From Halioglobus sp. (GTDB taxonomy: Bacteria; Pseudomonadota; Gammaproteobacteria; Pseudomonadales; Halieaceae): a stretch of DNA of 64,000 bases. Below, one piece after another: positions 2,829-63,036 of this stretch (positions within the stretch are counted from its first letter, which is position 1; each line of letters begins with the position of its first letter). The translations under genes were made by a program, and so were the position numbers. The stretch lies in assembly GCA_020443345.1 (NCBI GenBank), contig JAGRIH010000037.1, forward strand, positions 62,001 through 126,000. The letters are read 5' to 3'. The notes beneath the pieces were generated by a model, which did not search any database, was not told the origin of the DNA, and was given only the letters and a program-made list of their open reading frames with translations.

Positions 2829-5597
2829 CTAGCGCAGTTGCGCCATGAGTTTTTCGGCCTGCTCTCTCTCGGCAAAGGCAGCGTGATCGGCCAGCAGGCC
2901 TTCGAGCGTACCGATGGCCGCATCGCGCTCGCCCGCCGCGGCACTGATCACGGCGCTGTGGTACCGCGCGGTGGGATCGCCGGGCTTTTGTTCCAGGGCG
3001 CGCGCAATGCTGCGCCTGGCCGCGGCCGTGTTACCGTTTTTCAACTGCACCATCGCCAGGGTGTCCAGGGCGGACGGGGATTGCCGATCGAGGTCCACCG
3101 CTCGTTTGGCGTAGGCCAGGGCCTGCGCCGGATCGCTGTCGCGCAACTCCCAGGCCAGGTTGTTGAGCGCCACGAAACTTTTCTCGTCGATTTCCAGTAC
3201 CCTGGCGTACTGCGCCATCGCCCGCTCTTTCTCACCCTGAGCCCGATACACGGCGGCCAGCTCCAGGCGCGCCCCGGTATCCCCGGGGTGTTGCTCGAGC
3301 CACGTTGTCAGAGTGCGCTGCGCGTCTTCCGTTGCACCCATGGACCACTGCTGCCGCGCCAGCACCAGCACGTTGCGCGTGCTCGGTGCCTTGTGCAGCG
3401 CCTGTTCGGACAGGGTCAGCGCCTGCGCATCGTCGCCGTCAAACCGGGCGCGCACCGCATCCAACTGCATCACCTCGGCACTGTCCGGCACCAACTGGCG
3501 CAGTATCTGCAGTTGCTGCAGCGCCGCCTCCCGTTCCCGGTTCTGCAACAGCCAGCGGGTGAGTTCCACGCGCGCGGCGATATAGCCCGGCGCCATCGCA
3601 ATGGCCTTCTCGAACTCCGCCGCCATGCGCTCTGTATCGCCCAGATTGCGGTAGACGAGACCCAGATGATAGTGCGGCTGGGGAGCGTCCGGACGCTTGC
3701 CGATCAGCTCCTTGAAGGAATCTCTGGCATCGCGGTAGTTCCCGCGCTGCAGTTGTACCATACCCTGCACGTTGAGCACTTCTGGATTGGCCTTGCCCGT
3801 TTTATCCAGCTCGCTGAGCGCGAGCTGCGCCTGATCCGGCTTGCCCTGGACAAGGTAGTGACGGGCCAGGAAGATCCTCGGCTGGATCGCCTTCGGATAG
3901 GCATCCGCCGCCTGTCGCAGCCGGCTCTGCATTGCCGGGTAATCGTTCTCCAGTTCACTCAGCGCCGCCAACTTCAGCAGGGTCGGCAGGTCATTTTCCT
4001 TTTCATTCAGGACATTCTGATAATAACGGCGCGCGCGATCGTAGTCCTGGTCCCGGATCGCCAGCAGGGCCAGGCTGAAATTGGCCGCCGGGTCGGCGGG
4101 CGCTATTGTCAGCGCACGGGCAAAAGCCTGTTCTGCGCTGGCCCGGTCTCCGGAGCGCATATACACGGTACCGCGCATCACGTCGGGCGCCGCGCCACCG
4201 GGGTGTTTGTCCTCAAAGGCGTCTATCGCCTCCAGCGCGGCATCGTAGCGCTGCTCCCGCAACAGCGCGGATATCAGCAGCAGGTCCGCCTGCTGCAGTT
4301 GCGGATTCATCTGCAGTGCCGCACTCAGGTGCTCCAGCCCCTCGACCACCTCGCCGCCCAGCAGCAGCCCCGCGCCGAGCCTCGTCTGGGCCTCGGGTGA
4401 TTCGGGCTGCAGTTGCGCAGCCGCGCTCAGCAGATCGATGCCCTGCGCAGTTTTGCCCTGCCTCAGCAACGCCGAGGCAAGCAGGTTCAGCGCCGCCACA
4501 TCGCTTTCATCGCGGGCGATTACCGGTCGCAGCAAACGCTCCGCCGCGGCACTGTCGCCCATCTGCAGCTTGATCGACGCCAGCAGCTTCCGGCCCATGG
4601 CATGGTCCGGATTCGGAGCCAGAAACCGGGACGCGCTGGCCTCCGCCTGCTCCAGTTGGCCGGTTCGGGCCTGCGCCACGGCCAGATAAAACATGGACAG
4701 CGGGAACTGATCCTCGTACTGTGAGGCGCGCTCCAGCGCGGCCACCGCCCCGGTGAAATCGCCGTCGCGGGATGCGATGATGCCGAGCAGGTACTGCGTG
4801 CCGGGGTGTTTCGGCAGCAGCTTGTGCAGCTTTGCCACATCGTCCCGGGCCTGCTCGAAATTGTCCATCTGGATACGCAGCAGCGCCCGCTTGTAGCGGT
4901 AGTCGAAATTACCCGGATCGCCGGCAACCGCCCGTGTATAGGCTGTCTCGGCCCGGGCCAACTCCAGGTCCCGGGCTTCGACATCCCCCAACAGGTCCCA
5001 GGCTGGCGCGTAGTCCGGGTCCAGCTCGAACACGGCGTCGAGCTGTGCGCGAACCGGCGCGTAGTCGTCGCCCGCCCGCGCGGCCAGCAGCCTGGCGCGC
5101 ACGAACAGCGCGTAGGGCGAGCGCGGGTCTTCCTTGACGGCCTGCTCGACCAGCAGGGCCGCCGCGTCCATATCGCCCAGGCGCAGCTTGCCCCAGCCCT
5201 GGGCGGCAAGCACGATTGCGCGCGCCGCGTTGGACAGGCCCGCGACCGACAGCGCTTCGAGCGCGGTCAGTTCGTTGCGCGCGAGCAGCGCCTGTGCCAG
5301 GGGCGGCAACACCGTCTCGTCGGCCGCACCCAGCTCGGAGGCGCGGCTGAGCTCCTTGGATGCCTCGGGATAGTCACCCAACTCGAAATAGGCCTGCCCC
5401 AGCAGGAGCCGGGCCTGCGGCTGGTCGGCATCCTGCTGCAGCGCGTTCTTCAGTTCAATTACGGCAGCGGCATGCTCACCGCTGGCCAGGTATTCCCGGG
5501 CCTTTTGCAGGTGCTCATCCACCGAGTTCTGCGCCATACAGCCGGCCACGAGCCCGAGCAACAGACCCAGTACAATACCGCGAAAACCCCCGTACAT
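2829..5597 (-). CDS. prsT: PEP-CTERM system TPR-repeat lipoprotein PrsT
   Basis: Large tetratricopeptide lipoprotein that accompanies PEP-CTERM/exosortase A systems (TIGR02917 type); it is believed to act in the periplasm or at the outer membrane in EPS or cargo handling, but its biochemical role is not settled. The 922-residue product begins with a lipoprotein signal ending in LVAGC (Cys20) and then consists of TPR repeats to the end. ATG 5597 was chosen over an in-frame start at 5681 because GGGAGAG sits about 6 bases upstream and the signal peptide starts there. Length fits the family (about 900). The PEP-CTERM gene lies just upstream on the same strand but ends in its own terminator. Confidence 0.92.
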   Translation of the reverse strand: MYGGFRGIVLGLLLGLVAGCMAQNSVDEHLQKAREYLASGEHAAAVIELKNALQQDADQPQARLLLGQAYFELGDYPEASKELSRASELGAADETVLPPLAQALLARNELTALEALSVAGLSNAARAIVLAAQGWGKLRLGDMDAAALLVEQAVKEDPRSPYALFVRARLLAARAGDDYAPVRAQLDAVFELDPDYAPAWDLLGDVEARDLELARAETAYTRAVAGDPGNFDYRYKRALLRIQMDNFEQARDDVAKLHKLLPKHPGTQYLLGIIASRDGDFTGAVAALERASQYEDQFPLSMFYLAVAQARTGQLEQAEASASRFLAPNPDHAMGRKLLASIKLQMGDSAAAERLLRPVIARDESDVAALNLLASALLRQGKTAQGIDLLSAAAQLQPESPEAQTRLGAGLLLGGEVVEGLEHLSAALQMNPQLQQADLLLISALLREQRYDAALEAIDAFEDKHPGGAAPDVMRGTVYMRSGDRASAEQAFARALTIAPADPAANFSLALLAIRDQDYDRARRYYQNVLNEKENDLPTLLKLAALSELENDYPAMQSRLRQAADAYPKAIQPRIFLARHYLVQGKPDQAQLALSELDKTGKANPEVLNVQGMVQLQRGNYRDARDSFKELIGKRPDAPQPHYHLGLVYRNLGDTERMAAEFEKAIAMAPGYIAARVELTRWLLQNREREAALQQLQILRQLVPDSAEVMQLDAVRARFDGDDAQALTLSEQALHKAPSTRNVLVLARQQWSMGATEDAQRTLTTWLEQHPGDTGARLELAAVYRAQGEKERAMAQYARVLEIDEKSFVALNNLAWELRDSDPAQALAYAKRAVDLDRQSPSALDTLAMVQLKNGNTAAARRSIARALEQKPGDPTARYHSAVISAAAGERDAAIGTLEGLLADHAAFAEREQAEKLMAQLR

Positions 5598-5791
5598 CGA
5601 TGCTCTCCCTGTGCGGGGCAAGCGCCCCAGACCCTGCTGCGGCCACTGCTGTGGCGCAGCGTCACAGACCACTGCGAGCATGGTAGAGGTTTATCGGGAC
5701 GGTGTACATCGGAGCGGGGCGCCAAAATGCGGAACCAAATCACACATGGGAACATCCGGCGCAGCGGGCCCGCGTTTGTCTGAGGTTGGGC

Positions 5792-5847: not shown

Positions 5848-6795
5848 TCAGGCCGCCTTGCGCGCCTTGCGGCGCTGGAACCAGGCCAGTGACAGCAGGC
5901 TGCCGCTCATCAGGAACAGCGTGGCGGGCGCCGGAACCAACTGGGTTGCCAGGACGGAAAACTCCAGATCGAAACGATTGATCTCGTTCTCGAAGGTGGT
6001 GAAACCGGCGCAACCCGCAGCGCGACCAACTGCCGCACAGGATTTGTTTGACAGCGTGCCGATATTGCCACTGATCTCCCGCAGGAAGACCTCATACTTA
6101 TACCCGTCGATGTCGAAAGAATCGATCACGAACGCCAGGCTCTGGTCGGGACGGCCCACATTGACCAGTTGCGGGGTGCCCAGGTCACCCGTGTCCAGAA
6201 CGAAGATATCGCCGCAGCCAAAGGCGTTGATGGTGTCGGGGCCGCCCAGGGGGGCCGCCTCGCACGCCGGCTGGCCGGGCGAGCCGTGCGCGTTGATGGT
6301 CTCCAGGAAATTGACGCCGAACATCACCTGCTGAATCTGCACGGTACCGGGCGGCACCGAGGTCAGGACCACGTAATCCTCCGCGGTGGCCGTATCCAGC
6401 GAGGTGCCGGTGATGACAAAGTTGTTGTGCACCAAGACCGGGCCCAGTTCAAAATCCATGTCATTGATGTCAGTCGCGGTGGTCACGGTACCCGTGACCT
6501 TCATGTTATCGGGTGTCTCGGTATCCCCCACTACCGGATTGATCACCAGGCTGCTGATTTTGTTGGCGGGATTCGATGGTGTGCCCCAGTCGAGCTTGGT
6601 CCACCCGGCGACGTCACCCGGGTTCACACCGCCGGACATATTGACCCCACCGGGCGCGGCCGAAACAAACTCGAACTCCTGCGTGTAGTCGAACGTGCCG
6701 ATTATGGCCGCAAAGGTGGGCGCCGCCAGGGACGCCCCGAAACCGACACCGAGACATTTCACCAGGGTGGCTATTTTGCTACCGGTTGCTTTCAT
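5848..6795 (-). CDS. PEP-CTERM sorting-domain protein (exosortase substrate)
   Basis: Secreted cargo protein of the exosortase pathway, 315 residues. The N-terminus has a Sec signal ending near APTFAA. The last 29 residues (about 287-315) form the sorting tail: VPAP, then a hydrophobic stretch (ATLFLMSGSLLSLAWF), then the basic QRRKARKAA. XrtA, encoded in the main operon, would cleave or transfer at this tail. The body has four cysteines, two of them in CAAVGRAAGC, and no catalytic domain that I recognise. ATG 6795 has a strong GAGGAGAGAG site. A sigma-54 promoter lies about 110 bases upstream and a terminator follows, so it is a one-gene transcript. It is the only PEP-CTERM protein in the window. 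Confidence 0.92.
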   Translation of the reverse strand: MKATGSKIATLVKCLGVGFGASLAAPTFAAIIGTFDYTQEFEFVSAAPGGVNMSGGVNPGDVAGWTKLDWGTPSNPANKISSLVINPVVGDTETPDNMKVTGTVTTATDINDMDFELGPVLVHNNFVITGTSLDTATAEDYVVLTSVPPGTVQIQQVMFGVNFLETINAHGSPGQPACEAAPLGGPDTINAFGCGDIFVLDTGDLGTPQLVNVGRPDQSLAFVIDSFDIDGYKYEVFLREISGNIGTLSNKSCAAVGRAAGCAGFTTFENEINRFDLEFSVLATQLVPAPATLFLMSGSLLSLAWFQRRKARKAA

Positions 6796-7029: not shown

Positions 7030-7076
7030 ATGTAAAAAAAGCTGACACCTGTCGGGGGCCGGACCGGCGGCGCGGC

Positions 7077-9206: not shown

Positions 9207-9225
9207 ATCTCCCCGTGACGGAGAT
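9207..9225 (+). promoter_or_regulatory. Small hairpin around an alternative GTG start
   Basis: ATCTCC (9207-9212) and GGAGAT (9220-9225) form a 6-bp stem whose 7-base loop contains the GTG at 9215. Folding would hide both that GTG and the GGAG sequence. This is one reason to prefer the ATG at 9242 as start. Short, so possibly chance. Confidence 0.3.
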
Positions 9226-9241
9226 AAGTGACATAACGCCA

Positions 9242-11131
9242 ATGAACCAGGCTCAAACCGCGCCGGCGGATCGATCTGTGAACCAGTTCCTGACGCACAG
9301 CAATGTGGGCTGGTATGCGCGGCGCGCCGACGAGCCACCCGCCGCCGATGACCTCCCGGCCATGTGCCGCGCCACCGCCACCTGCCTGAATTGGGACCAG
9401 CGCAGGGGAGATCGTTTCCAGGCCGCGTCCACCTGTTCACAGGCCAGCCTGGGGCGCGATGGCTGCGTGCAACTGGTCGGGTACCCGCGCTTTACCGACC
9501 CCGAGTTACGGCAACTGGCGGCAGATAACGGCCCCGCCGCGGCCCTGGCCTGCGCCTATACCGCCGATGCGGACGCTTTCACCGCCCAGTTGTGGGGCGC
9601 GTTCAGCTTCAGCATTGTCGATGCGGACAACGAGCGCGTCGTGCTGGGTATCGACCGCCTCGGCCAGTTTCCACTGTTTTACCACCAACTGCCACAGGGC
9701 ATCGCCTGGGGCACCACGGCCAATGCCGTTCTGGCGCACCCGGCGCTGCGGCCCCGTGTGTCCGAGCAGGGCGTGTTCGATTACGTGTATTTTCATTTTA
9801 TGCCCAGCCCGGTTTCGATTTTTTCCGGTCTGAGCAAACTGCAGGCGGCGCACTGCCTGGTCTTTGAAGCGGGCAAATCCAGCGTCCAGCGCTACTGGCA
9901 GCCGCAATTTTCCGAGTCGACAGACAAGTCCTACCGCGACGCATGCGACGCACTGCTGCCGCTGCTGCGCCGGGCCGTGCAGCGCAGTCTGGACCAGGCA
10001 GTTGCGCCGGGCGCCTTCCTCAGCGGGGGGCTGGACAGCTCGACCGTTACCGGGGTACTGGCCGAAGTCAAACAGCAACAGGCGCAGGCATTTGCCATCG
10101 GCTTCTCGGCAAAGGGCTACGACGAAATGCCCTACGCGCGCATTACCGCCCGGCATTTCGGGGTCGAGCTCAACGAATACTACGTCACCCCGGACGACGT
10201 GGTACAGGCGCTGCCCCTCGTCGCCACCAGCTATGACGAACCCTTCGGCAACTCCTCCGCGCTGCCCGCCTATTTCTGCGCGCGCATGGCGGCCGAGCAC
10301 GGCGTTACCCGACTGCTGGCCGGGGACGGCGGTGACGAGCTGTTTGCCGGCAACGAGCGCTACGCGCGCCAGCAGATCTTCGAACACTACGCACGGGCAC
10401 CCAAAGTGCTGCGCCGCGGCCTGCTGGAACCGATACTCGGCTTGCTGCCCGCCCGGCTGCCCCTGATCGGCAAGGCCAGGAGTTATATCGAGCAGGCCAA
10501 CGTGCCGCTGCCGGACCGGCTGCAGACATACAATTTCCTGCACCGCCATGCGCCCGAAGACATCTTTGCGCCCGACCTGCTGGAACACATCAGCGTCGCG
10601 GCCCCGGTGGAATTGCTGCGGTCCGTCTACAGCGCGCCGCGCGAGGCTTCGACCCAGAACCGCATGCTGTACCTGGACTGGCAGTTTACACTGGCGGACA
10701 ACGACCTGCGCAAGGTGAGCCACATGTGTGCGCTGGCCGGCGTTGAAGTCGTCTACCCGCTGCTGGATGACGAACTGGTGGCATTCTCGTGCACTCTGCC
10801 CAGCCGCTGGAAGCTCAGGGGGCGGCGCCTGCGTCATTTTTACAAGGATGCATTGCAGCACTGGCTGCCCGCGGCGACCATCAGCAAGACCAAGCAGGGC
10901 TTTGGCCTGCCCTTCGGCGTGTGGCTGCAGACCCACGACGCGCTGCGTGAACTGGCCTACGACAACCTGCTGAAGCTGAAGAGCAGGCATATCCTGCGCC
11001 CCGAATTTATCGACAGGACCATCGACTTGCACCGCAGCGGGCACGCTGCCTACTACGGTGAACTGGCGTGGATACTCACCGTCTTCGAGTTGTGGATGAG
11101 CGCGCACCAATCGGCCAACTCCGCTGGGTAG
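9242..11131 (+). CDS. Asparagine-synthase-like protein lacking the N-terminal glutaminase cysteine
   Basis: About 629 residues with the ATP-pyrophosphatase core of asparagine synthetases: the PP-loop SGGLDSS is at residues 261-267, with GDGGDELFAGNERY further on. The N-terminal Ntn-like region is recognisable (WGAFSFSIVD, VVLGIDRLGQFPLFY), but neither candidate start gives the Met-Cys of a working glutaminase. It therefore probably uses ammonia or another amine, as beta-lactam-synthetase-like relatives do, or is supplied in trans. ATG 9242 is preferred over the in-frame GTG 9215. The next gene follows by 7 bases, and the ACP gene diverges. It may form an amide on an acyl or sugar carboxylate; this is inference. 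Confidence 0.75.
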   Translation: MNQAQTAPADRSVNQFLTHSNVGWYARRADEPPAADDLPAMCRATATCLNWDQRRGDRFQAASTCSQASLGRDGCVQLVGYPRFTDPELRQLAADNGPAAALACAYTADADAFTAQLWGAFSFSIVDADNERVVLGIDRLGQFPLFYHQLPQGIAWGTTANAVLAHPALRPRVSEQGVFDYVYFHFMPSPVSIFSGLSKLQAAHCLVFEAGKSSVQRYWQPQFSESTDKSYRDACDALLPLLRRAVQRSLDQAVAPGAFLSGGLDSSTVTGVLAEVKQQQAQAFAIGFSAKGYDEMPYARITARHFGVELNEYYVTPDDVVQALPLVATSYDEPFGNSSALPAYFCARMAAEHGVTRLLAGDGGDELFAGNERYARQQIFEHYARAPKVLRRGLLEPILGLLPARLPLIGKARSYIEQANVPLPDRLQTYNFLHRHAPEDIFAPDLLEHISVAAPVELLRSVYSAPREASTQNRMLYLDWQFTLADNDLRKVSHMCALAGVEVVYPLLDDELVAFSCTLPSRWKLRGRRLRHFYKDALQHWLPAATISKTKQGFGLPFGVWLQTHDALRELAYDNLLKLKSRHILRPEFIDRTIDLHRSGHAAYYGELAWILTVFELWMSAHQSANSAG

Positions 11132-42020: not shown

Positions 42021-43567
42021 CGCGGCGCACTCTGTGCAGGTGCGTCGAGAGCGGCATCCAGCGCAGCGCAGCCCTCATGCAGAAAAGCCTGCAGCAACTG
42101 CGCTGCCGCCTCCGGCACATCCGTCGACGGCGCCGCCAGTACGATCCGGTACAGCGTGCCATCGCCCCAACCCAGCGCGGCCGCCGCCTGCAACAGTTTG
42201 CCCAGGTACTCGTTGGCCGTGTAGCTGCCGGCCACCCGGTACCAGGACCAGACCAGCAGGCGCGCGCTGCCGGTAGCGCGCACCAGGACAGCCTGGCGCA
42301 CCGGCACACGGCGGGCGCCGAGCTGTACCGGCACCGTGTCCTGTGCCACGATGCGCCAGGCGCTGCGACGCTCCACCAGATCATCGACGCTGCCCACCAC
42401 ATCGCCATCCAGCGGCCCCTCGGGATACTGCACATAGAGGCCCAGGACCCGCTCCCCGCGGCGATAGAAAGCCGTGCTGTCGCCGCGGACCACGCTGCCG
42501 GGGCGCCAGGCCCAGGCCGCCTGCTCATCGCGGGCGAAGTCACCCAAGCGCGGTGGCAGCACGACGGCGCTGTCGCCCGTCCCGGCGCCGCCCCCGCTCA
42601 GGGCCAGTGCCAGCAGTGGCCAGAGTGCCGCCAGCGACAGGCACAGCAGCAGCGCTCTGGTCAGCGGAGCGGCGGTGGCAGAGCGGGCCGGCCCGGGCGC
42701 CGGCACCGCAGCGCCCGGGCCGGGATCCCGCTCCCGGAAAAATGCGCCGACCCAGAATAGCAAAAATATCACCAGGCCGAAAAACACCCAGCCATAGATG
42801 AGGTGATCCACCCCGGTGGCGATGGTCATATCACTGAGGTGTCCCAGCATGACGATGATATAGGCGCGCAGGCTGTTGGCGATGATCGGCACGATAATAG
42901 AGGCCAGAACGAACAGCAGCCGCCGCCACAGGCTGCGGTAGGTCAGGTAGGCGTACAGCACCCCCAGGGTCAGCGAGGCGATCAGATACCGCGAGCCGCT
43001 GCAGGCCTCCACCACCGACCAGTTGCCGGTGGGCAGTGTAAAGTACAGCCCCTCCCGGTAGACGGGTATGCCGGTGTGCTGGATCAGCCAGACCGTCGAG
43101 GTGGCGGTAAACTCCATCAGCGGCGGAATCAGCGCCTCGCCCATGGGTACGGCGAAAAACAGGAACAACAGGGGGAAGGCCAAAACGCGGCCCAGGTCGT
43201 GCCCCAGCACCGCCCACGCCGTGACGATCGCCATGCCGACCATGGCCAGCTGCTGTACCACCAGCACGTCCACCAGGTGGGCCACCAGCCAGGTGAACCC
43301 GAGGGGCAGCAACAGCAGTGCGACCAGCGGCGCGGGCCTGGCGCTGCGCCCGCGCAGGTCAAGACGCCTGTCCCAGACCAGCCACAGCACGATCGGCACG
43401 ATCAGAAAGCCGTGGGCATAGGTTTCGGAGCGCAACCAGATAGCCACCACCGAAGCCGTGGTCTGGTAATACACCAGCAGCAGGACCACACAGCCCAGGG
43501 TCGCCGCCCAGAGGTTGCGGCGAACCGGGGCGGACAGACCCGCAACGTCGGCGCGTGTCTCAGGCAC
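42017..43567 (-). CDS. xrtA: Exosortase A (XrtA) with fused EpsI domain
   Basis: 516-residue inner-membrane cysteine protease/transpeptidase that processes PEP-CTERM proteins. About eight helices carry the catalytic set: Cys189 in VEACSGSRYL, Arg234 in ANSLRAY and His255 in GVDHLIYGW. From about residue 310 a helix (ALLLCLSLAALWPLLALAL) leads into an EpsI-type periplasmic domain with VVGSVDDLVERRS and SWYRVAG. The GTG at 43567 overlaps the previous gene by 8 bases and fits the family N-terminus; longer reading into that gene is not supported. Its in-window cargo is the PEP-CTERM protein at 5.8-6.8 kb. Confidence 0.95.
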   Translation of the reverse strand: MPETRADVAGLSAPVRRNLWAATLGCVVLLLVYYQTTASVVAIWLRSETYAHGFLIVPIVLWLVWDRRLDLRGRSARPAPLVALLLLPLGFTWLVAHLVDVLVVQQLAMVGMAIVTAWAVLGHDLGRVLAFPLLFLFFAVPMGEALIPPLMEFTATSTVWLIQHTGIPVYREGLYFTLPTGNWSVVEACSGSRYLIASLTLGVLYAYLTYRSLWRRLLFVLASIIVPIIANSLRAYIIVMLGHLSDMTIATGVDHLIYGWVFFGLVIFLLFWVGAFFRERDPGPGAAVPAPGPARSATAAPLTRALLLCLSLAALWPLLALALSGGGAGTGDSAVVLPPRLGDFARDEQAAWAWRPGSVVRGDSTAFYRRGERVLGLYVQYPEGPLDGDVVGSVDDLVERRSAWRIVAQDTVPVQLGARRVPVRQAVLVRATGSARLLVWSWYRVAGSYTANEYLGKLLQAAAALGWGDGTLYRIVLAAPSTDVPEAAAQLLQAFLHEGCAALDAALDAPAQSAPR

Positions 43568-50434: not shown

Positions 50435-51976
50435 TCAGGACAGCATCAGCACCTGCCCGATATTCAGGCCGACAAAGGCGACCATCAACACCGCCACCAG
50501 TGATGAAAAAACAACCAAGCCCCAGGCGTCCCGTTTGCTTTGTTCTGGTGTCGGGATCAATGTCACGGTGCCCAGCAGCGGCAGGCCGGTCAGCTTGGTC
50601 AGCGATTGCTGGTCGACCACCACCGGCCTGATCAGTGAAGCCAGCAGGGCCAGCGCCGCACCGGCACCGAGCGCGACCACCAGCACCAGCGTGTTCAACA
50701 ACAACTTGTTGGGTTCGCTGGGACGCGACGGGACGAAAGGCGGGTCGATCACCCGGAACGTGACATCGCTGGCATTTTGCTGGACATCCTCGGACAACTT
50801 GGCCGCCTCGCGGCGCTGCAGCAGTTCCTGGTGCTGGGAGGCGATTACCTGGTAATCGCGGTCCAGTTGTTTGAGCTGCGCCTCGATCTCCGGAATGCTG
50901 TTGACCTTGTCGTTCAATGCCTGCACCCGCGCCTCGTATTCCGCCACGCGTACCCGCAGTTCCGCCACCTGGGCGTCCGTTTCTCCGAGCATCGCGCGCA
51001 TCCCCTGATACACCGGGCTGGACGAGAGCCCGGCGTATGCACCGGTGTAGTCGTTGGCGCGGGCCGATTCCAGTTCAGCGCGTTTTTCAGCCTCCAGTTC
51101 CTGGATCAGGCCGCGGATCTGGCGGACTTCCGGGTGGCGTTCGGTGTACTTTGCCAGCAGGGCGTCCATCTTTGCATTCAGTGCCTGGATCCGGGCATCC
51201 AGCGGCGAATCGGAAGCGCTGATACCGCTGGACAGGAATACCGGCTCCTCGCCGTCGATCTGCCGCTGCAGTTCCCGGCGCCGGTTTTCCATTTCCCGGA
51301 GCTGTAACTTGGCGGCGGAGAGTTCCCGCGCGGCCTGGTCCAGGCGCGCATAAAAGCCGCCCCCCTCACCGGGCAGCACACCGACGTGCCGCTGTTTGAA
51401 CGCGGCCAGGCGGCTTTCGGCTTCGACCAGGCGTTGTTCATAGTCGGCAATTTGCTGGTCCAGAAAATCCTGCGCACCGGTATTCACCTCGCGCTTGTCG
51501 CTGAGACCGCTCTCGATGAACACGGTGATCAATGCCTGGGTTATGCGCTTGGCGATGTCGCGGTCGGCATCCAGTACCTCGATGGAATACAGCGAAGAAT
51601 TGCCCCGGTCGCCATACAGACTGATAGCGCCGCGCAACTCGGTGAGAAATTCCTCTTTCTCGCGGTCGGTCTGCACCTCCAGATCCAGGTCCGTCATGCG
51701 CATGACTTTTTCCAGATTGGGTCGGCTCAGCAGGGTGCGGCTCATCATGGCGATGCGCTGGTCCACGTTGGGCTGGATGGCCAGGCCGCGCAGCAGCGGG
51801 CGCAGCACGTTGTTGCTGTCCACGTAGATTCTGGCGGTACTGACGTAGGCCTCCGGCATCTGCTGCACGAACAGCCAGCCGCCCAGGGCGATGACCCAGG
51901 CGACCACCAGCGCCAGCCAGCGAAAGCGCCAGACACCCCAGACGTAGCTCAATATTTGCGCGATGGCTTCCTGCAT
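50435..51976 (-). CDS. XrtA-associated polysaccharide chain-length determinant (Wzz/PCP-like)
   Basis: 513-residue polysaccharide co-polymerase (TIGR03007 type). One membrane helix near the N-terminus (LALVVAWVIALGGWLFV), a long periplasmic coiled-coil region (LVEAESRLAAFKQRH, AAKLQLREMENRRRELQRQ), then a proline-rich segment (DPPFVPSRPSEPNK) and a second helix (LNTLVLVVALGAGAALALLA). A further hydrophobic C-terminal helix is present. It forms the inner-membrane ring that contacts the BY-kinase encoded next. Confidence 0.93.
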   Translation of the reverse strand: MQEAIAQILSYVWGVWRFRWLALVVAWVIALGGWLFVQQMPEAYVSTARIYVDSNNVLRPLLRGLAIQPNVDQRIAMMSRTLLSRPNLEKVMRMTDLDLEVQTDREKEEFLTELRGAISLYGDRGNSSLYSIEVLDADRDIAKRITQALITVFIESGLSDKREVNTGAQDFLDQQIADYEQRLVEAESRLAAFKQRHVGVLPGEGGGFYARLDQAARELSAAKLQLREMENRRRELQRQIDGEEPVFLSSGISASDSPLDARIQALNAKMDALLAKYTERHPEVRQIRGLIQELEAEKRAELESARANDYTGAYAGLSSSPVYQGMRAMLGETDAQVAELRVRVAEYEARVQALNDKVNSIPEIEAQLKQLDRDYQVIASQHQELLQRREAAKLSEDVQQNASDVTFRVIDPPFVPSRPSEPNKLLLNTLVLVVALGAGAALALLASLIRPVVVDQQSLTKLTGLPLLGTVTLIPTPEQSKRDAWGLVVFSSLVAVLMVAFVGLNIGQVLMLS

Positions 51977-55150: not shown

Positions 55151-55523
55151 CGAAACCGGCAATGGCTTGGCACCGTGCGCATGGCAGCTGTGTCAGTTTT
55201 TTTTACAGTCGCGCGCGACAAACTCCCACTTCCTCCGAAATCCTGTAAAGTTTTTTATACAAGTGATTGTTTTATATTGATTATTTTTCATAGGCTCAGT
55301 TTTTGCATCATCTTTGCGCGGCCCGGCTCAACCCGCTCGCATCACGCGCCGTGGCCGACAGAACGTGCGCGGCGTGAGAGGTGTGATAAAAGTCTCAGAA
55401 CAGAGGCGTTACCAGTTGTTTACTGCCGTATCAGTGCTACAGTAAACAAAGCAGTCAACACAGGTATTGCACGGTCGTGCCGACCCGGTGTCGGGTGACC
55501 ACCCAGTCAGGAAACGGTGATGT
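55151..55523. other. Long non-coding region upstream of the HPr-rel-A set
   Basis: About 370 bases without a supported gene. It holds a T8 run (55197-55204), a markedly AT-rich stretch (about 55240-55320) unlike the surrounding GC-rich DNA and suited to a promoter or UP element, and the inverted repeat at 55416-55449. No promoter pair stands out. Confidence 0.5.
55416..55449. promoter_or_regulatory. Perfect 10-bp inverted repeat, likely operator
   Basis: TTGTTTACTG (55416-55425) and CAGTAAACAA (55440-55449) with a 14-base spacer; the arm centres are 24 bases apart, a little over two helical turns. It lies about 75 bases upstream of the first gene of the HPr-rel-A set. The geometry fits a dimeric regulator; alternatively it is a leader hairpin. 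Confidence 0.5.
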
Positions 55524-55907
55524 ATGGACGACAATTCGGATCAGGCCTCCGGCACACAGGAGACGACAGGCGGAACCAGCGGTGCGATGGATACTGCCAC
55601 CGTGGATACCGGCTCTTCCCGGCGGCAGTTTACGCGCCAGGCGCTCACCGGTAGCGCGGTCCTGTTCTCCCTGGCCAACCGGCCGGTGTGGAGCCAGACT
55701 GCCAACGGTGATTGCGTCTCCGTGGGTTTCCTGAATTCCGTGGGCTTCTCATCGCTGAGCCCAGAGCTGCAGGACGCCAAGATTGCAGACACCAAGCAGC
55801 AAATTGAAGCGCTGCAACAACTCGCAGAAGATCGGGGCATGACGACGCAGGAACAGAACCCGGGCACCACTGATGCCGAGGTCTGCATCGTCCCGGTACA
55901 GAACTAA
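55524..55907 (+). CDS. Small protein with twin-arginine-like signal, candidate HPr-rel-A substrate
   Basis: 127-residue protein of unknown function. A Ser/Thr/Asp-rich N-terminus (1-31) precedes SRRQFTRQA (32-40), close to the Tat consensus S-R-R-x-F-x-K, and a hydrophobic stretch (39-51, LTGSAVLFSLA). A probable cleavage site lies near VWSQTA. The mature part has only two cysteines (64 and 121), a helical Gln-rich segment (about 80-105) and the end VCIVPVQN. It precedes the PqqD-like, HprK-like and nucleotidyltransferase genes on the same strand. Its position makes it a candidate for the peptide handled by those enzymes, but no motif proves it. Confidence 0.65.
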   Translation: MDDNSDQASGTQETTGGTSGAMDTATVDTGSSRRQFTRQALTGSAVLFSLANRPVWSQTANGDCVSVGFLNSVGFSSLSPELQDAKIADTKQQIEALQQLAEDRGMTTQEQNPGTTDAEVCIVPVQN

Positions 55908-56027
55908 AACGCCTTCCTGTTCTGAGCGGTCCCCTGCGGGCCGTTTCAGTAACAGTCAAAAATCGATTGACGCAGGCGGCAAACCCCGGCACCTTCTGCA
56001 ACATTCCATTGACGAGTGCAAGTGTAG

Positions 56028-56297
56028 ATGCAGTGGTATGCAGGCACGCCGGGGGAGTTCTACGACTGCGACGAAGCGACTGTGGTGTACTTTCACCCCC
56101 CCAGCGGCAACACCCACCTCATCACCGCGTTTGCCGCCTACCTGCTGCGCGAACTCGCCCGCCGGCCGATGACCCTCGAGCAACTCCTGCAATACGCCGC
56201 ATCCGCCACCGCAGCGGATGACTACCGGTCAGTCAGCTGCGCACTGCCCGGACTGCTGCAGGACCTGGTCCAGCTCGACATCCTTGAACAGGTATAG
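56028..56297 (+). CDS. HPr-rel-A system PqqD-like peptide chaperone
   Basis: 89-residue PqqD-family protein (TIGR04353 type) with the winged-helix-like RiPP recognition fold: YDCDEATVVYFHPPSGNTHL, then ITAFAAYLLRELARRPMTLE and a C-terminal LVQLDILEQV. PqqD proteins bind a leader peptide and present it to modifying enzymes; in the HPr-rel-A system the bound peptide is not known to me. ATG 56028 lacks a strong ribosome site. The kinase gene starts 9 bases after its stop. Confidence 0.85.
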   Translation: MQWYAGTPGEFYDCDEATVVYFHPPSGNTHLITAFAAYLLRELARRPMTLEQLLQYAASATAADDYRSVSCALPGLLQDLVQLDILEQV

Positions 56298-56306
56298 CCG
56301 GTAAAA

Positions 56307-57227
56307 ATGCAGACACTAGGGGGTCTATCCGGGCATGCCCTGGAACGCGGGCTGCGGGACGGCCGCCTGCCACTGTGCGTAGGGCCCTACGTCTACGCCC
56401 TGCAAACCGACCAGTCCCGCGTCATCGACGGTATTGGCCTGCTGTACGCCGATTTCCCGCTGGCGGCGGCGGATGACTTCGTGGACTACCGCATAGCCCT
56501 GCGCCAGCGCGGGATCGTGTCGCGTCTGCGCCGGCAGGTCGACTTCTACTTTGACCACCAGCGCCCCTTTGCGCCGGTGCATCGCGACACGGCCTATGCC
56601 TCGCTCGAGTGGGGCATGAACTGGTGCGTGTCCACCGGCGCCAACGAATACCTCAAACTGCATGCCGCCGTCGTGGCGCGCGATGGCGTGGCCGTCGTCA
56701 TGCCGGGCGTACCCGGTGCCGGGAAAAGCACCCTGTGTGCCGCGCTGGGACTGTCGGGGTGGCGCGTGCTGTCGGACGAGCACGCCATGATCGTACCGGG
56801 CACCGCAGACGTCATCCCTCTATATCGCCCGGTGAGCTTGAAAAACGAGAGCATCCAGGCGATCTGCAGCTTTGCCCCCGACGCGGTCTTCGGGCCGCTG
56901 AGCAGGGACACCCACAAGGGGACGGTGGCGCACCTCAAAGCGGACCTGGACCCAGCCAGCCACGACACCCGGCCGCTTCCGGCCCGGGTGATGCTGTTTC
57001 CAAAATACGCCAAAGGCGAGCCGCAGCGACTGAGCGCCCGGTCGCGCACCGAGAGTTTTATCGTCGCCGCTTTTCACTCGTTCAACTACAGTCTGCTGGC
57101 AAAGACGGGGTTTCGCGCCATGCAGGCCCTGCTCGATGCGGTGCAGTGCTACGATCTGGTCTATCACGACCTGGACTGGGCACTGCGCAACCTGGACGGG
57201 CTCCACCGGCAAGTGGGCGCCGGATGA
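56307..57227 (+). CDS. HprK-related kinase A
   Basis: 306-residue kinase related to HPr kinase/phosphorylase (TIGR04352 type). After an N-terminal region, KLHAAVV (His119) corresponds to the histidine before the P-loop of HprK; the P-loop is PGVPGAGKST (133-142) and LSDEHAMI (Asp157/Glu158) supplies metal-binding acids. Real HprK phosphorylates HPr on serine; this branch lacks the HPr partner and its target is unknown. It overlaps the nucleotidyltransferase gene by 4 bases (ATGA). Confidence 0.88.
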   Translation: MQTLGGLSGHALERGLRDGRLPLCVGPYVYALQTDQSRVIDGIGLLYADFPLAAADDFVDYRIALRQRGIVSRLRRQVDFYFDHQRPFAPVHRDTAYASLEWGMNWCVSTGANEYLKLHAAVVARDGVAVVMPGVPGAGKSTLCAALGLSGWRVLSDEHAMIVPGTADVIPLYRPVSLKNESIQAICSFAPDAVFGPLSRDTHKGTVAHLKADLDPASHDTRPLPARVMLFPKYAKGEPQRLSARSRTESFIVAAFHSFNYSLLAKTGFRAMQALLDAVQCYDLVYHDLDWALRNLDGLHRQVGAG

Positions 57228-58330
57228 GCAGCGTGCTGGTGCGCAGCCTGTTGGACTCCGCCGCCGTGGCCTCGCTGGGGTCCGCCGAGCTCAACCAGCT
57301 CATACCGCAGGGGCGCGTAACGGATTTGCTGGCGACGCTGGCGCTGCGTCTGCAACAGGCAGACAAGCTGCAACAGGTGCCGCCGCATGCGCGCAGACAC
57401 CTCGAATCGGCCATCGTGGTGCATCGCAAGCAGCGCCAGGACCTGGCGTATGAAATCAAGTGGCTGCGCCGGGCCCTGGCACCCACCGGACAACCCCTGG
57501 TACTGCTCAAGGGTGCCGCCTACCTGCAGGCCGGTCTGCCCTGGGCGCAGGGCAGAATGCTCTCCGATATCGACTTGCTGGTTCCCGCCCATGCGATCGG
57601 GGCGGTGGAGGCCGCGCTCAACGCCAGCGGCTGGCAAAGCGGCACGCTCGATGCCTATAACGAGCGCTACTACCGTAAATGGATGCACGAAATTCCCCCG
57701 ATGGCACACCCGGGCCGCCGCTCGACCCTCGATCTGCACCACACCATACTGCCGCCCACCGCCGCTCCGCGGGTGGACGCCAGTCTGCTGTTGCGGGACA
57801 TACAGCCGGTGCAGGAAGGGCTTTTCACGCTGGCGCCAGCGGATATGGTCATTCACAGCGCCACCCACCTGTTCCACGAAGGGGAATTCCGCCACGGCCT
57901 GCGCGATTTGTGGGACCTCGACCGCATGCTGCGCGACTTCGCCGGCCAGGACCCGGATTTCTGGCGGCACCTGGTACCGCGCGCCGAGCAACTGGATTTG
58001 CTGGACTCGCTGTTTCACGGGCTCAACTACAGCCGGCAGGTATTCGGTACGCCCGTGCCGTCATCGGTCGTGTCACAAGCGGAAAACTGGCGCCGCCGGC
58101 TGCGCAAACCGCTGATGGATTTCCTGTTCACCAGGGCATTGCAACCGGACCAGCCCGAATGCCGGCGCCCGGGCACCGCCCTGGCGCTCAACGCGCTCTA
58201 CGTGCGCTCACACTACCTGCGCATGCCGGTCCACCTGCTGCTGCCGCACCTGCTGCGCAAAGGCTGGATGCGGCATTTTACCCAACCTGCAGACGGCGAG
58301 CCGGTGGCGGGGAAACAGGGCGACAAGTAG
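57224..58330 (+). CDS. Nucleotidyltransferase-family protein of the HPr-rel-A set
   Basis: 368-residue NTP_transf_5-like protein (PF14907 type). The catalytic part is VLLKGAAYLQAGLPWAQGRM followed by LSDIDLLVP with the metal-binding aspartates; HEIPPMAHPGRRSTLDLHH and DMVIHSATHLFHEGEFRHGL follow, as in the family. It would transfer a nucleotide to a protein or small molecule; the acceptor is unknown. ATG 57224 is coupled to the kinase stop. It converges with tviB, with 27 bases between stops. Confidence 0.85.
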   Translation: MSSVLVRSLLDSAAVASLGSAELNQLIPQGRVTDLLATLALRLQQADKLQQVPPHARRHLESAIVVHRKQRQDLAYEIKWLRRALAPTGQPLVLLKGAAYLQAGLPWAQGRMLSDIDLLVPAHAIGAVEAALNASGWQSGTLDAYNERYYRKWMHEIPPMAHPGRRSTLDLHHTILPPTAAPRVDASLLLRDIQPVQEGLFTLAPADMVIHSATHLFHEGEFRHGLRDLWDLDRMLRDFAGQDPDFWRHLVPRAEQLDLLDSLFHGLNYSRQVFGTPVPSSVVSQAENWRRRLRKPLMDFLFTRALQPDQPECRRPGTALALNALYVRSHYLRMPVHLLLPHLLRKGWMRHFTQPADGEPVAGKQGDK

Positions 58331-60853: not shown

Positions 60854-60933
60854 GTTTCTCACCACGAGCGGCTATCGCGTAACGTGATCTTGTACACGCT
60901 TTGGTAACTTATGCACGGGGACTCAACGAGATA

Positions 60934-63036
60934 ATGCTGGCCAATGTGGGTTTATACAGCTACGCCACTGCGTTGCTGGCATACACCGTGTTGAGCGCAC
61001 TGGTGTTTCTGGACCGGCGCACGCATCCCGTTGGCTGGCCGCTGTTGCTGGCCTGCGTGCTGACCACCGTGTGGGCCGGGATCATCGCCGGCTCCACCCT
61101 GCTGGACTACCCGCGCATAGCGCTCATGCAACTGAGCGAAGTGGCGCGCAACGCCGCCTGGTCCGTGCTGTTACTGAAGCTGATACAAATGCGGCTGCAG
61201 CAGTCGGATCAGGCGCACTCCCCGGGGCGCTGGTTACTCTGGCTGGCTGTTGGCTACGGCGTGGTTGTCGCCATCCTGTTCGGCACGCCATGGCTGCTGC
61301 AGGCGCTGTCACTGCCGGAACACTGGCAGCGGGATCTGTCATTCTCGTGCTGGCTGGCGATGTCCGTGGCGGGACTGCTGTTGCTGGAACAGATTTTTCG
61401 CAACAGTACCGAGGGGGGGCGCTGGTCCAGCAAGTTTTTGTGCCTGGGGCTGGGTTTCCTGTTCGCCTTTGACTTTTTCATGTATGCCCAGGCGCTGCTG
61501 TTCCGGCAACTGGACGCGACGCTGTGGCAGGCGCGGGGCATTCTGGTGGCACTCACCGCAGTTTTTGTCGGGATATCCATGCGGCGCACCGACGGTGGCA
61601 GTTTGCAGGTATCCCGGCACGTTGCCTTCCATTCGGTGACGCTGCTGGCCGCCGGTATCTACCTTATCCTCATGGCCACGGTCGGCTACTTCATCCGCTA
61701 CCTCGGGGGCACCTGGGGCGGCGTGCTGCAAATCACGTTCCTGTGTGCTTCGGGTCTGCTGTTGCTGGCCCTGATGTTCTCGGGACAAATCCGCGCGCGC
61801 ACCCGGGTGTGGCTGAGCAAGAACTTTTTCAGTTACAAGTACGATTACCGCGTGGAGTGGCTGCAGTTTACCCGCACCCTGTCCGAGGGCGGCGAGAATA
61901 TTCCGGAGAACATCGTCAGGGCCATCGCCCATATCACCCAGAGTCCCGCCGGACTGCTCTGGAGCAGGACCGAAGACGGCCAGTTTGTCTTCACCTGCCA
62001 CTGGCAAATGGCTGAACCGGAGCCGGACGACAAACTACAGGCCCTGCCGCTGTGGCTGCAGCAGACGCAGTGGATCATCGACCTGCAGGAATGGCGCCGG
62101 GCTCCCGACGTCTACCAGCATCTGCAGTTGCCGGACTTTATCCTGGCGATCCCCCGCGCCTGGCTGATCATCCCGCTGATCTTCGGCGAGCGCCTGCAGG
62201 GTATCGTGCTGCTGCGCGAATCCGACCTGCAGCCGGATATCAACTGGGAGGACCGCGATCTGCTGAAAGTCGCGGGGTGCCAGGCGGCCAGTTACCTGGC
62301 ACAGTACCAGGCCAGTCGGGCACTGGTGGAGTCCCGCCAGTTCGAAGCGTTCAACCGGCTGTCGGCCTACGTCGTGCACGACCTGAAAAACATCCTCGCG
62401 CAGCAGTCGCTCATCGTGTCGAACGCGGCCAAACACCGCAACAACCCCGACTTTGTCGAGGATGTCATCAACACGGTGGGCAACTCCGTCGAGCGCATGA
62501 CCCGGCTGATGGAACAGATGCGCAGCGGGGTACGCGGCATACAAACACAGCAGATCGCACTGCACGAGGTGATTCAGGAAGCCGTGGCCAGTCGCCGCAA
62601 AGCGCTGCCCCAGCCGCAACTGCTGGGCTGCGACCAGCCACTGACGGTACAGGCCGACCGCGAGCAGCTACTGACCGTATTCACGCACATTATCCAGAAC
62701 GCCCAGGAGGCGAGCAGCAAGACGGGGCGAGTTGCGGTACGTGTGCGGGAACCGCGGGACGGCCGTGTCGTGGTCGAAATCGATGACGATGGCGTGGGCA
62801 TGGATGAGGCCTTCGTGCGCAACCGCCTGTTCACGCCCTTTGATTCCACCAAGGGCCTGACCGGCATGGGTATCGGAGCGTTCGAGAGCCGCGAGTTCGT
62901 GCGCAGCCTGGGGGGCGACATACAGGTCACCAGCACCCCCGGCAAGGGCTCCCGGTTTCGCATCGTACTGCCCTGCGCATCGACTGACACAGACGTAATG
63001 GACGCCAATAAGGAATGTTCGTGTGAGCAAGAGTAA
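60934..63036 (+). CDS. prsK: Sensor histidine kinase PrsK
   Basis: 700-residue membrane sensor kinase of the PEP-CTERM/EPS regulatory pair. The N-terminal half (to about 285) has seven to eight membrane helices; a GAF-like domain (about 320-465) follows; the kinase part has the phospho-accepting His482 in YVVHDLKN, the N-box HIIQNAQEAS and G-boxes DDGVGMDEAF and GLTGMGIGAFESREF. ATG 60934 is chosen over an upstream TTG (60901), since the usual PrsK N-terminus (NVGLYSYATALLAYTV) follows it. It overlaps prsR by 14 bases. Confidence 0.93.
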   Translation: MLANVGLYSYATALLAYTVLSALVFLDRRTHPVGWPLLLACVLTTVWAGIIAGSTLLDYPRIALMQLSEVARNAAWSVLLLKLIQMRLQQSDQAHSPGRWLLWLAVGYGVVVAILFGTPWLLQALSLPEHWQRDLSFSCWLAMSVAGLLLLEQIFRNSTEGGRWSSKFLCLGLGFLFAFDFFMYAQALLFRQLDATLWQARGILVALTAVFVGISMRRTDGGSLQVSRHVAFHSVTLLAAGIYLILMATVGYFIRYLGGTWGGVLQITFLCASGLLLLALMFSGQIRARTRVWLSKNFFSYKYDYRVEWLQFTRTLSEGGENIPENIVRAIAHITQSPAGLLWSRTEDGQFVFTCHWQMAEPEPDDKLQALPLWLQQTQWIIDLQEWRRAPDVYQHLQLPDFILAIPRAWLIIPLIFGERLQGIVLLRESDLQPDINWEDRDLLKVAGCQAASYLAQYQASRALVESRQFEAFNRLSAYVVHDLKNILAQQSLIVSNAAKHRNNPDFVEDVINTVGNSVERMTRLMEQMRSGVRGIQTQQIALHEVIQEAVASRRKALPQPQLLGCDQPLTVQADREQLLTVFTHIIQNAQEASSKTGRVAVRVREPRDGRVVVEIDDDGVGMDEAFVRNRLFTPFDSTKGLTGMGIGAFESREFVRSLGGDIQVTSTPGKGSRFRIVLPCASTDTDVMDANKECSCEQE

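Follow-up and report, generated by a model that had tools for sequence, protein, structure and literature searches.

Which protein do the enzymes of the HPr-rel-A gene set act on? The question is raised by a 64,000-nucleotide stretch of Halioglobus sp. DNA (contig JAGRIH010000037.1, positions 62,001 to 126,000 of the forward strand; hereafter the window), in which four plus-strand genes at 55524-58330 encode a small protein with a twin-arginine translocation (Tat) type signal, a PqqD-like protein, an HprK-related kinase and a nucleotidyltransferase. Neither a substrate nor a function of HPr-rel-A was found in the literature searched, the free-text notes of the NCBI models lying outside that scope. 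A sequence-only reading of this DNA had proposed that the small protein is modified by its neighbors and then exported, in a manner resembling ribosomally synthesized and post-translationally modified peptides (RiPPs). The best explanation as a whole, to which we assign a probability of about 70%, is that the four genes form one precursor-modification unit with the Tat-type protein as its substrate. Its most likely product would be a Tat-exported phosphoprotein or phosphoglycoprotein of the exopolysaccharide (EPS) matrix, with modification guided by a RiPP recognition element (RRE).

The open reading frames and profile matches of the four-gene run are as that reading had described them. The Tat-type precursor and proposed substrate (127 aa, 55524..55907, +) lies, like its relatives, outside all Pfam and NCBIfam families. 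It is followed by a PqqD_rel_X protein (89 aa, 56028..56297, +; TIGR04353, 38.1 bits at a cut-off of 35), the HprK-related kinase A (306 aa, 56307..57227, +; TIGR04352, 322 bits at a cut-off of 200) and an NTP_transf_5 nucleotidyltransferase (368 aa, 57224..58330, +; PF14907, E 3.7e-48). The last three genes are tightly packed, with the start codon of the nucleotidyltransferase overlapping the kinase stop (ATGA), and the Tat-type gene ends 120 bp before the PqqD-like gene. A terminator or attenuator in this gap was considered and rejected, as the fold was not clearly better than those of shuffled sequences (z -1.06) and no terminator-like site was seen. The set contains neither a radical-SAM gene nor a gene for HPr or the phosphotransferase system (PTS), which bears out the earlier statement, and the operon is flanked by genes for an XrtA ATPase and a UDP-sugar dehydrogenase.

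Does the Tat-type gene belong to the set? We compiled 142 kinase loci, comprising the window, 41 loci found in a genome of the same family or in a survey of the class, 80 named genome-contig loci and 20 loci from a phylum-wide survey, which reduce to 132 non-redundant loci at 90% kinase identity. The sequence-only reading had staked its case on the small gene not being absent from most HPr-rel-A loci. A Tat-type gene is part of the set in 129 of the 132, a count that includes about 18 divergent proteins recognized by eye from the frames around the set, Comamonadaceae and sphingomonads among them. The PqqD-like gene is found in 127 and the nucleotidyltransferase gene in 131 of these loci, while the next most frequent neighbor, an epimerase, reaches 32 of 132 and none other approaches the Tat-type frequency. 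The Tat-type gene mostly stands directly upstream. It is found just downstream of the nucleotidyltransferase in about 10 loci, and L085, L106 and L119 carry two copies beyond that gene; the linkage is thus maintained while the order changes. The three loci without it are L095 and L173, which are weighed below, and L118, whose contig ends downstream; L065 is also truncated, but a close relative of it carries the gene. A profile of the Tat signal, seeded on the first 41 loci (L034-L074 nearly throughout) plus one later locus, recovered the gene in the independently fetched sets L075-L154 and L164-L183, and only two same-strand matches, both weak (10-12 bits), lay away from the set in about 2.2 Mb. 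As a single query, P0001 retrieved one relative only in 195 genomes of the order, so that sequence search alone would have pointed to an orphan. The gene set is real and the Tat-type protein belongs to it, a conclusion that we regard as nearly certain.

Some further features of these loci may be recorded here. Four further genomes from the genus of the window all lack HprK_rel_A, whereas 26 of 81 in the family have it, a sporadic distribution which suggests loss or transfer. The second most common extra neighbor, found in 31 of the 132 loci (beside the set in L035 and L105, for example), encodes a trypsin-like serine protease of the DegP type that carries a signal peptide and might process the Tat-type protein.

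The features that the sequence-only reading had listed for the 127-residue protein are all present. Its N-terminal extension of 31 residues (55524..55616, +) holds 11 Ser/Thr, and it is followed by the predicted export signal SRRQFTRQALTGSAVLFSLANRPVWS (55617..55694, +), which carries SRRQF at residues 32-36. The protein has exactly two cysteines, C64 and C121. Throughout the family the extension has a median length of 25 residues and is rich in S, D, A, E, P, T and Q. The signal follows the consensus SRR[RK][FL].K..G....P..L.TL.SRP[AV][LW][AG] with the second arginine kept in 128 of 128 proteins. Read from the sequence, twin arginines and a hydrophobic stretch are both present in the N-terminal region.

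Behind this signal four types, A to D, can be distinguished. Type A, the commonest with 99 of the 132 loci, has a length of about 200 aa and the pattern C-T-x-S-G-x-x-S-G-N-x-S followed by a helical domain. This mature domain (residues ~60-189, e.g. L141:569-1138) is confidently predicted to be all-helical, and its model found no match in the PDB. Type B, of about 120-160 aa, comprises Halieaceae proteins and the window protein, and types C and D end in a C-[WYFLM]-[TA]-S-[FLI]-like motif. For several loci of type C (L058, L060, L069, L071, L072, L073), the nucleotidyltransferase gene lies outside the operon, upstream and on the opposite strand. The description of the substrate as a small peptide therefore holds for some types only, since most lineages have a protein of about 200 aa that includes a helical domain of its own. 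Lasso precursors carry a C-terminal serine, but this was ruled out as a general rule here, the C-terminal motif being confined to types C and D.

Conservation in these proteins is concentrated in very few residues. Among 45 type A proteins, whose mean column identity is 19%, invariance is limited to the pair of arginines in the signal and to two serines; among ten type B proteins, the mature residues that never vary are C64, S66, S72, S77 and C121. In the window the first four fall at 55713..55754 (+), the three serines being candidates for modification, and the last at 55884..55886 (+), a possible disulfide partner of C64. Taking all types together, a serine stands at +3, +7 and +11 from the first mature cysteine in 52-57% of proteins, as compared with a background of 9%. 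This is what the target of a serine kinase combined with a disulfide would look like. The substrate type also tracks the kinase tree, with nine changes against 41.7 for shuffled labels.

What would recognize and modify such a protein? The PqqD-like protein is modeled with a PqqD-like winged helix-turn-helix fold (mean predicted confidence, pLDDT, 93), and the best Foldseek match of this model, at a probability of 1.00 although with weak E-values (4.5e-3 at best), is the lasso B1 protein TbiB1 with bound leader. Further matches include LynD/TruD-type heterocyclases, ThcOx, TigE, a sactipeptide enzyme and McbBCD, and also NGO1945, of a DNA-binding type whose resemblance to RREs is known (PMC7470986). 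Lasso B1 proteins were again, weakly, among the few PDB sequences found by the profile of the PqqD-like protein. Judged from its modeled structure the protein is an RRE, in agreement with the earlier assignment to a peptide-binding type. As for the kinase, its best PDB profile match is an HPr kinase, and H119, K140, D157 and E158 are kept in 42 of 42 sequences, in agreement with the P-loop and catalytic residue pattern of the HPr kinase superfamily; lasso kinases require a His-Lys-Asp-Asp set (PMC9266682). A match of P0004 to purine nucleoside phosphorylase in the PDB (E 0.014) was judged to be due to chance.

HPr kinases are regulatory enzymes. A resemblance to them could mean that an HPr-like switch phosphorylates the Tat-type protein in the cytoplasm and times its folding or export, with a mark that is not retained in the final product and a nucleotidyl group that is likewise regulatory. 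That phosphorylation can gate maturation is illustrated by the linear polyphosphorylated peptides (LPP) of Bacillota described in 2026, whose peptidase cleaves the unphosphorylated precursor poorly (PMC13381572). The set is, however, devoid of any HPr or PTS gene, and for the related LPP and lasso kinases the phosphate is part of the product; we therefore consider a purely regulatory role improbable. Phosphorylation of serine by the kinase is likely.

The set is further tied to the exosortase system, more strongly than the sequence-only reading had it. Haft and colleagues described an element in two parts that stands in front of PEP-CTERM genes (PMC1569441). Its motif 1 is 17 nt long, ends in TTTACA and is a predicted PrsR site; a sigma-54 site follows at a distance of 32-92 nt. 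Upstream of the window's Tat-type gene we found an exact match to motif 1, TGTCAGTTTTTTTTACA (55191..55207, +), and an imperfect sigma-54 type -24/-12 site, AGGCTCAGTTTTTGCA (55292..55307, +; score 5/8, GG-N10-GC kept), separated by a spacer of 84 nt that lies inside the published range. The motif 1 pattern has only three sites in the whole genome. Besides the one before the Tat-type gene, they stand ahead of a THxN family PEP-CTERM gene of the window (5848..6795, -; NF038125, 150.7 bits at a cut-off of 85; motif 1 at 7031-7047, -) and, on contig C47, ahead of another PEP-CTERM gene. Among the collected loci, a sigma-54 score of at least 6 is found before 79 of 115 Tat-type genes, where 3.2 would be expected, and 29 of 43 pairs of motif 1 and sigma-54 site in 2.16 Mb lie directly before a Tat-type gene; shuffled sequence yielded one pair. 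The two-part element is thus present before the gene, and its membership in a PrsR/sigma-54 regulon is predicted. PrsK occurs in 40 of 41 genomes of the class with the kinase versus 69 of 328 without it (Fisher p 5e-23, kinship ignored). In the window itself, the PrsK histidine kinase of PEP-CTERM regulation (60901..63036, +; TIGR02916, 762 bits at a cut-off of 300) is accompanied by an exosortase (about 42740-43447, -), PrsT (2829-5681, -) and an XrtA chain-length determinant (50435-51976, -). At 9215-11131 (+) lies an asparagine-synthase homologue of the kind seen in XrtA amidotransferases; lasso-cyclase models match it too, far below cut-off.

This context also permits another view, in which the Tat-type protein is merely a co-regulated exported matrix protein and the enzymes act on something else, such as a PEP-CTERM protein, a component of the EPS or an HPr-like protein encoded elsewhere. 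It would account for the confinement of the set to PEP-CTERM genomes, for L095 and L173, where kinase and nucleotidyltransferase stand with neither a PqqD-like nor a Tat-type gene nearby, and for the canonical RRE motif [YW]xxPx[LVIFA] being missing from 130 of 131 HPr-rel-A precursors and unseen in the leader or signal of the window protein. The last two observations weigh against the Tat-type protein as substrate, and others have to be added to them. The mature regions of types A-D are unrelated in sequence, conservation of the serines could have other reasons, the sigma-54 site of the window is imperfect, and the count of 129 of 132 rests partly on judgement, given that about 18 proteins were counted by eye. 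Moreover, the nucleotidyltransferase of the LPP system was without detectable effect (PMC13381572), and every step of the proposal, from binding and phosphorylation through addition of a second group to export by Tat and a role in the matrix, is inferred. Enzymes directed at another target are nevertheless difficult to reconcile with a linkage that survives relocation of the Tat-type gene to the opposite end of the set, with the co-phylogeny of substrate type and kinase, with serines that stay invariant in otherwise diverged proteins, and with the absence of the set from 69 of 109 PEP-CTERM genomes in the sample. We regard such a target as improbable. That the Tat-type protein is the substrate is, by comparison, highly probable in view of its linkage, its RRE-like partner, its invariant mature Ser/Cys residues and the retained catalytic residues of the kinase.

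With the Tat-type protein as substrate, a course of events can be proposed. The PqqD-like RRE would bind the N-terminal leader or signal of the Tat-type protein and present it to the HprK-like kinase, which would phosphorylate conserved serines just behind the signal, within C-x-S...S...S in the window type and C-T-x-S-G-x-x-S-G-N-x-S in the commonest type. In a next step, which we put forward only tentatively, the PF14907 nucleotidyltransferase might add a nucleotidyl or sugar group, probably on phosphoserine. The modified protein would leave by Tat, lose its signal peptide and take its place beside PEP-CTERM proteins in the EPS matrix, the whole being controlled by PrsK, PrsR and sigma-54. 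In Aquincola a PEP-CTERM protein, itself sigma-54-dependent, lowers EPS release (PMC9850573), and this effect suggests where the modified Tat-type protein may act; we give an extracellular matrix role even odds.

A stronger form of the same proposal makes the nucleotidyltransferase a phosphoserine glycosyltransferase and the Tat-type protein a covalently attached anchor of EPS. It draws by analogy on PsmN, which puts one or two hexoses on the phosphoserine of pseudomycoidin, and on the situation of LPP clusters in capsular polysaccharide loci (PMC13381572). The shared regulon would fit as well, and EPS and PEP-CTERM genes do lie near a minority of the loci, but most have no EPS cluster within about 8 kb, and we consider covalent anchoring unlikely.

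How far the arrangement extends beyond HPr-rel-A can be judged from 14 more distant HprK-like loci that fall below the TIGR04352 cut-off. Many of them also have PqqD-like and PF14907-like genes, and in at least six of the 14 the set is adjoined by Tat-type proteins of 66-526 aa (L193:8153-9385, three in tandem; L194:6846-7064; L191:8512-8784; L199:4741-5190; L196:499-819; L187:10063-11643). The canonical RRE motif, that of the lasso and LPP systems, is present in 8 of 8 of these proteins, within the hydrophobic part of the signal, as in YVAPAILTL. Its position suggests that RREs may recognize Tat signals quite generally, the motif having been altered in the HPr-rel-A branch. These loci possibly represent a wider class of Tat-exported RiPP-like precursors. 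It can be speculated, at odds slightly short of even, that Tat-exported phosphoproteins or phosphoglycoproteins form a widespread proteobacterial class, in which trios of RRE, HprK-like kinase and nucleotidyltransferase decorate serines immediately behind a twin-arginine signal. The product of the PEP-CTERM branch, HPr-rel-A, would then be a matrix protein under regulation, one that might bear EPS or serve as its anchor.

HPr-rel-A, for which curated models exist but no substrate or function came to light in the literature searched, thereby gains a concrete target with candidate sites of modification. It also gains a candidate regulator and a precedent in biochemistry, and becomes directly testable. 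If the proposal is true, RRE-guided serine phosphorylation would no longer be confined to Bacillota peptides but would also cover larger biofilm matrix proteins exported by Tat, the PEP-CTERM/PrsR regulon would gain a second kind of protein, and RiPP-type modification would be joined to Tat export and exosortase biology.

Among known systems, the LPP clusters come close in composition. They encode an RRE, an HprK-like kinase and an NTP transferase with precursors of 35-200 aa, and their kinase attaches several phosphates to LppA at Ser3, directly behind the point where the leader is cut off (PMC13381572). The window system likewise has these three proteins encoded beside a precursor gene, with precursors up to about 200 aa and a polysaccharide neighborhood. 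It differs from LPP in having a twin-arginine signal in place of a cytoplasmic leader, in being proteobacterial and under the PEP-CTERM promoter element, and in its leaders, as YxxPxVL or [YW]xxPx[LVIFA] is found in only one of the 131 HPr-rel-A precursors. Genes for a SipW-like peptidase and an MsbA-like exporter are lacking from the window operon at 55524-58330, the only locus searched for them. On account of the twin-arginine signal, the missing peptidase and exporter genes and the missing RRE motif, we do not file the system as LPP.

The tailoring of paeninodin-like lasso peptides uses the same three enzyme types, a K kinase, an N nucleotidyltransferase and a B1 RRE, to which our RRE model is closest. 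There the kinase phosphorylates the C-terminal serine and PsmN adds hexoses to it (PMC9266682, PMC8498205). The window system differs in its larger substrate and in candidate serines that are not C-terminal in types A and B, and neither a lasso cyclase nor a B2 protease is encoded in the window operon. With the PEP-CTERM/exosortase system it shares the two-part promoter element and the co-occurrence with PrsK. No PEP-CTERM sorting tail was seen in the window protein or in the relatives read, so that by sequence the Tat-type protein is not an exosortase substrate. With HPr-rel-A, finally, the correspondence is one of identity, as kinase and PqqD-like protein of the window are members by the curated cut-offs of TIGR04352 and TIGR04353; what the present analysis adds to that system is a conserved Tat-type partner, the Ser/Cys pattern of this partner and the PrsR/sigma-54 element.

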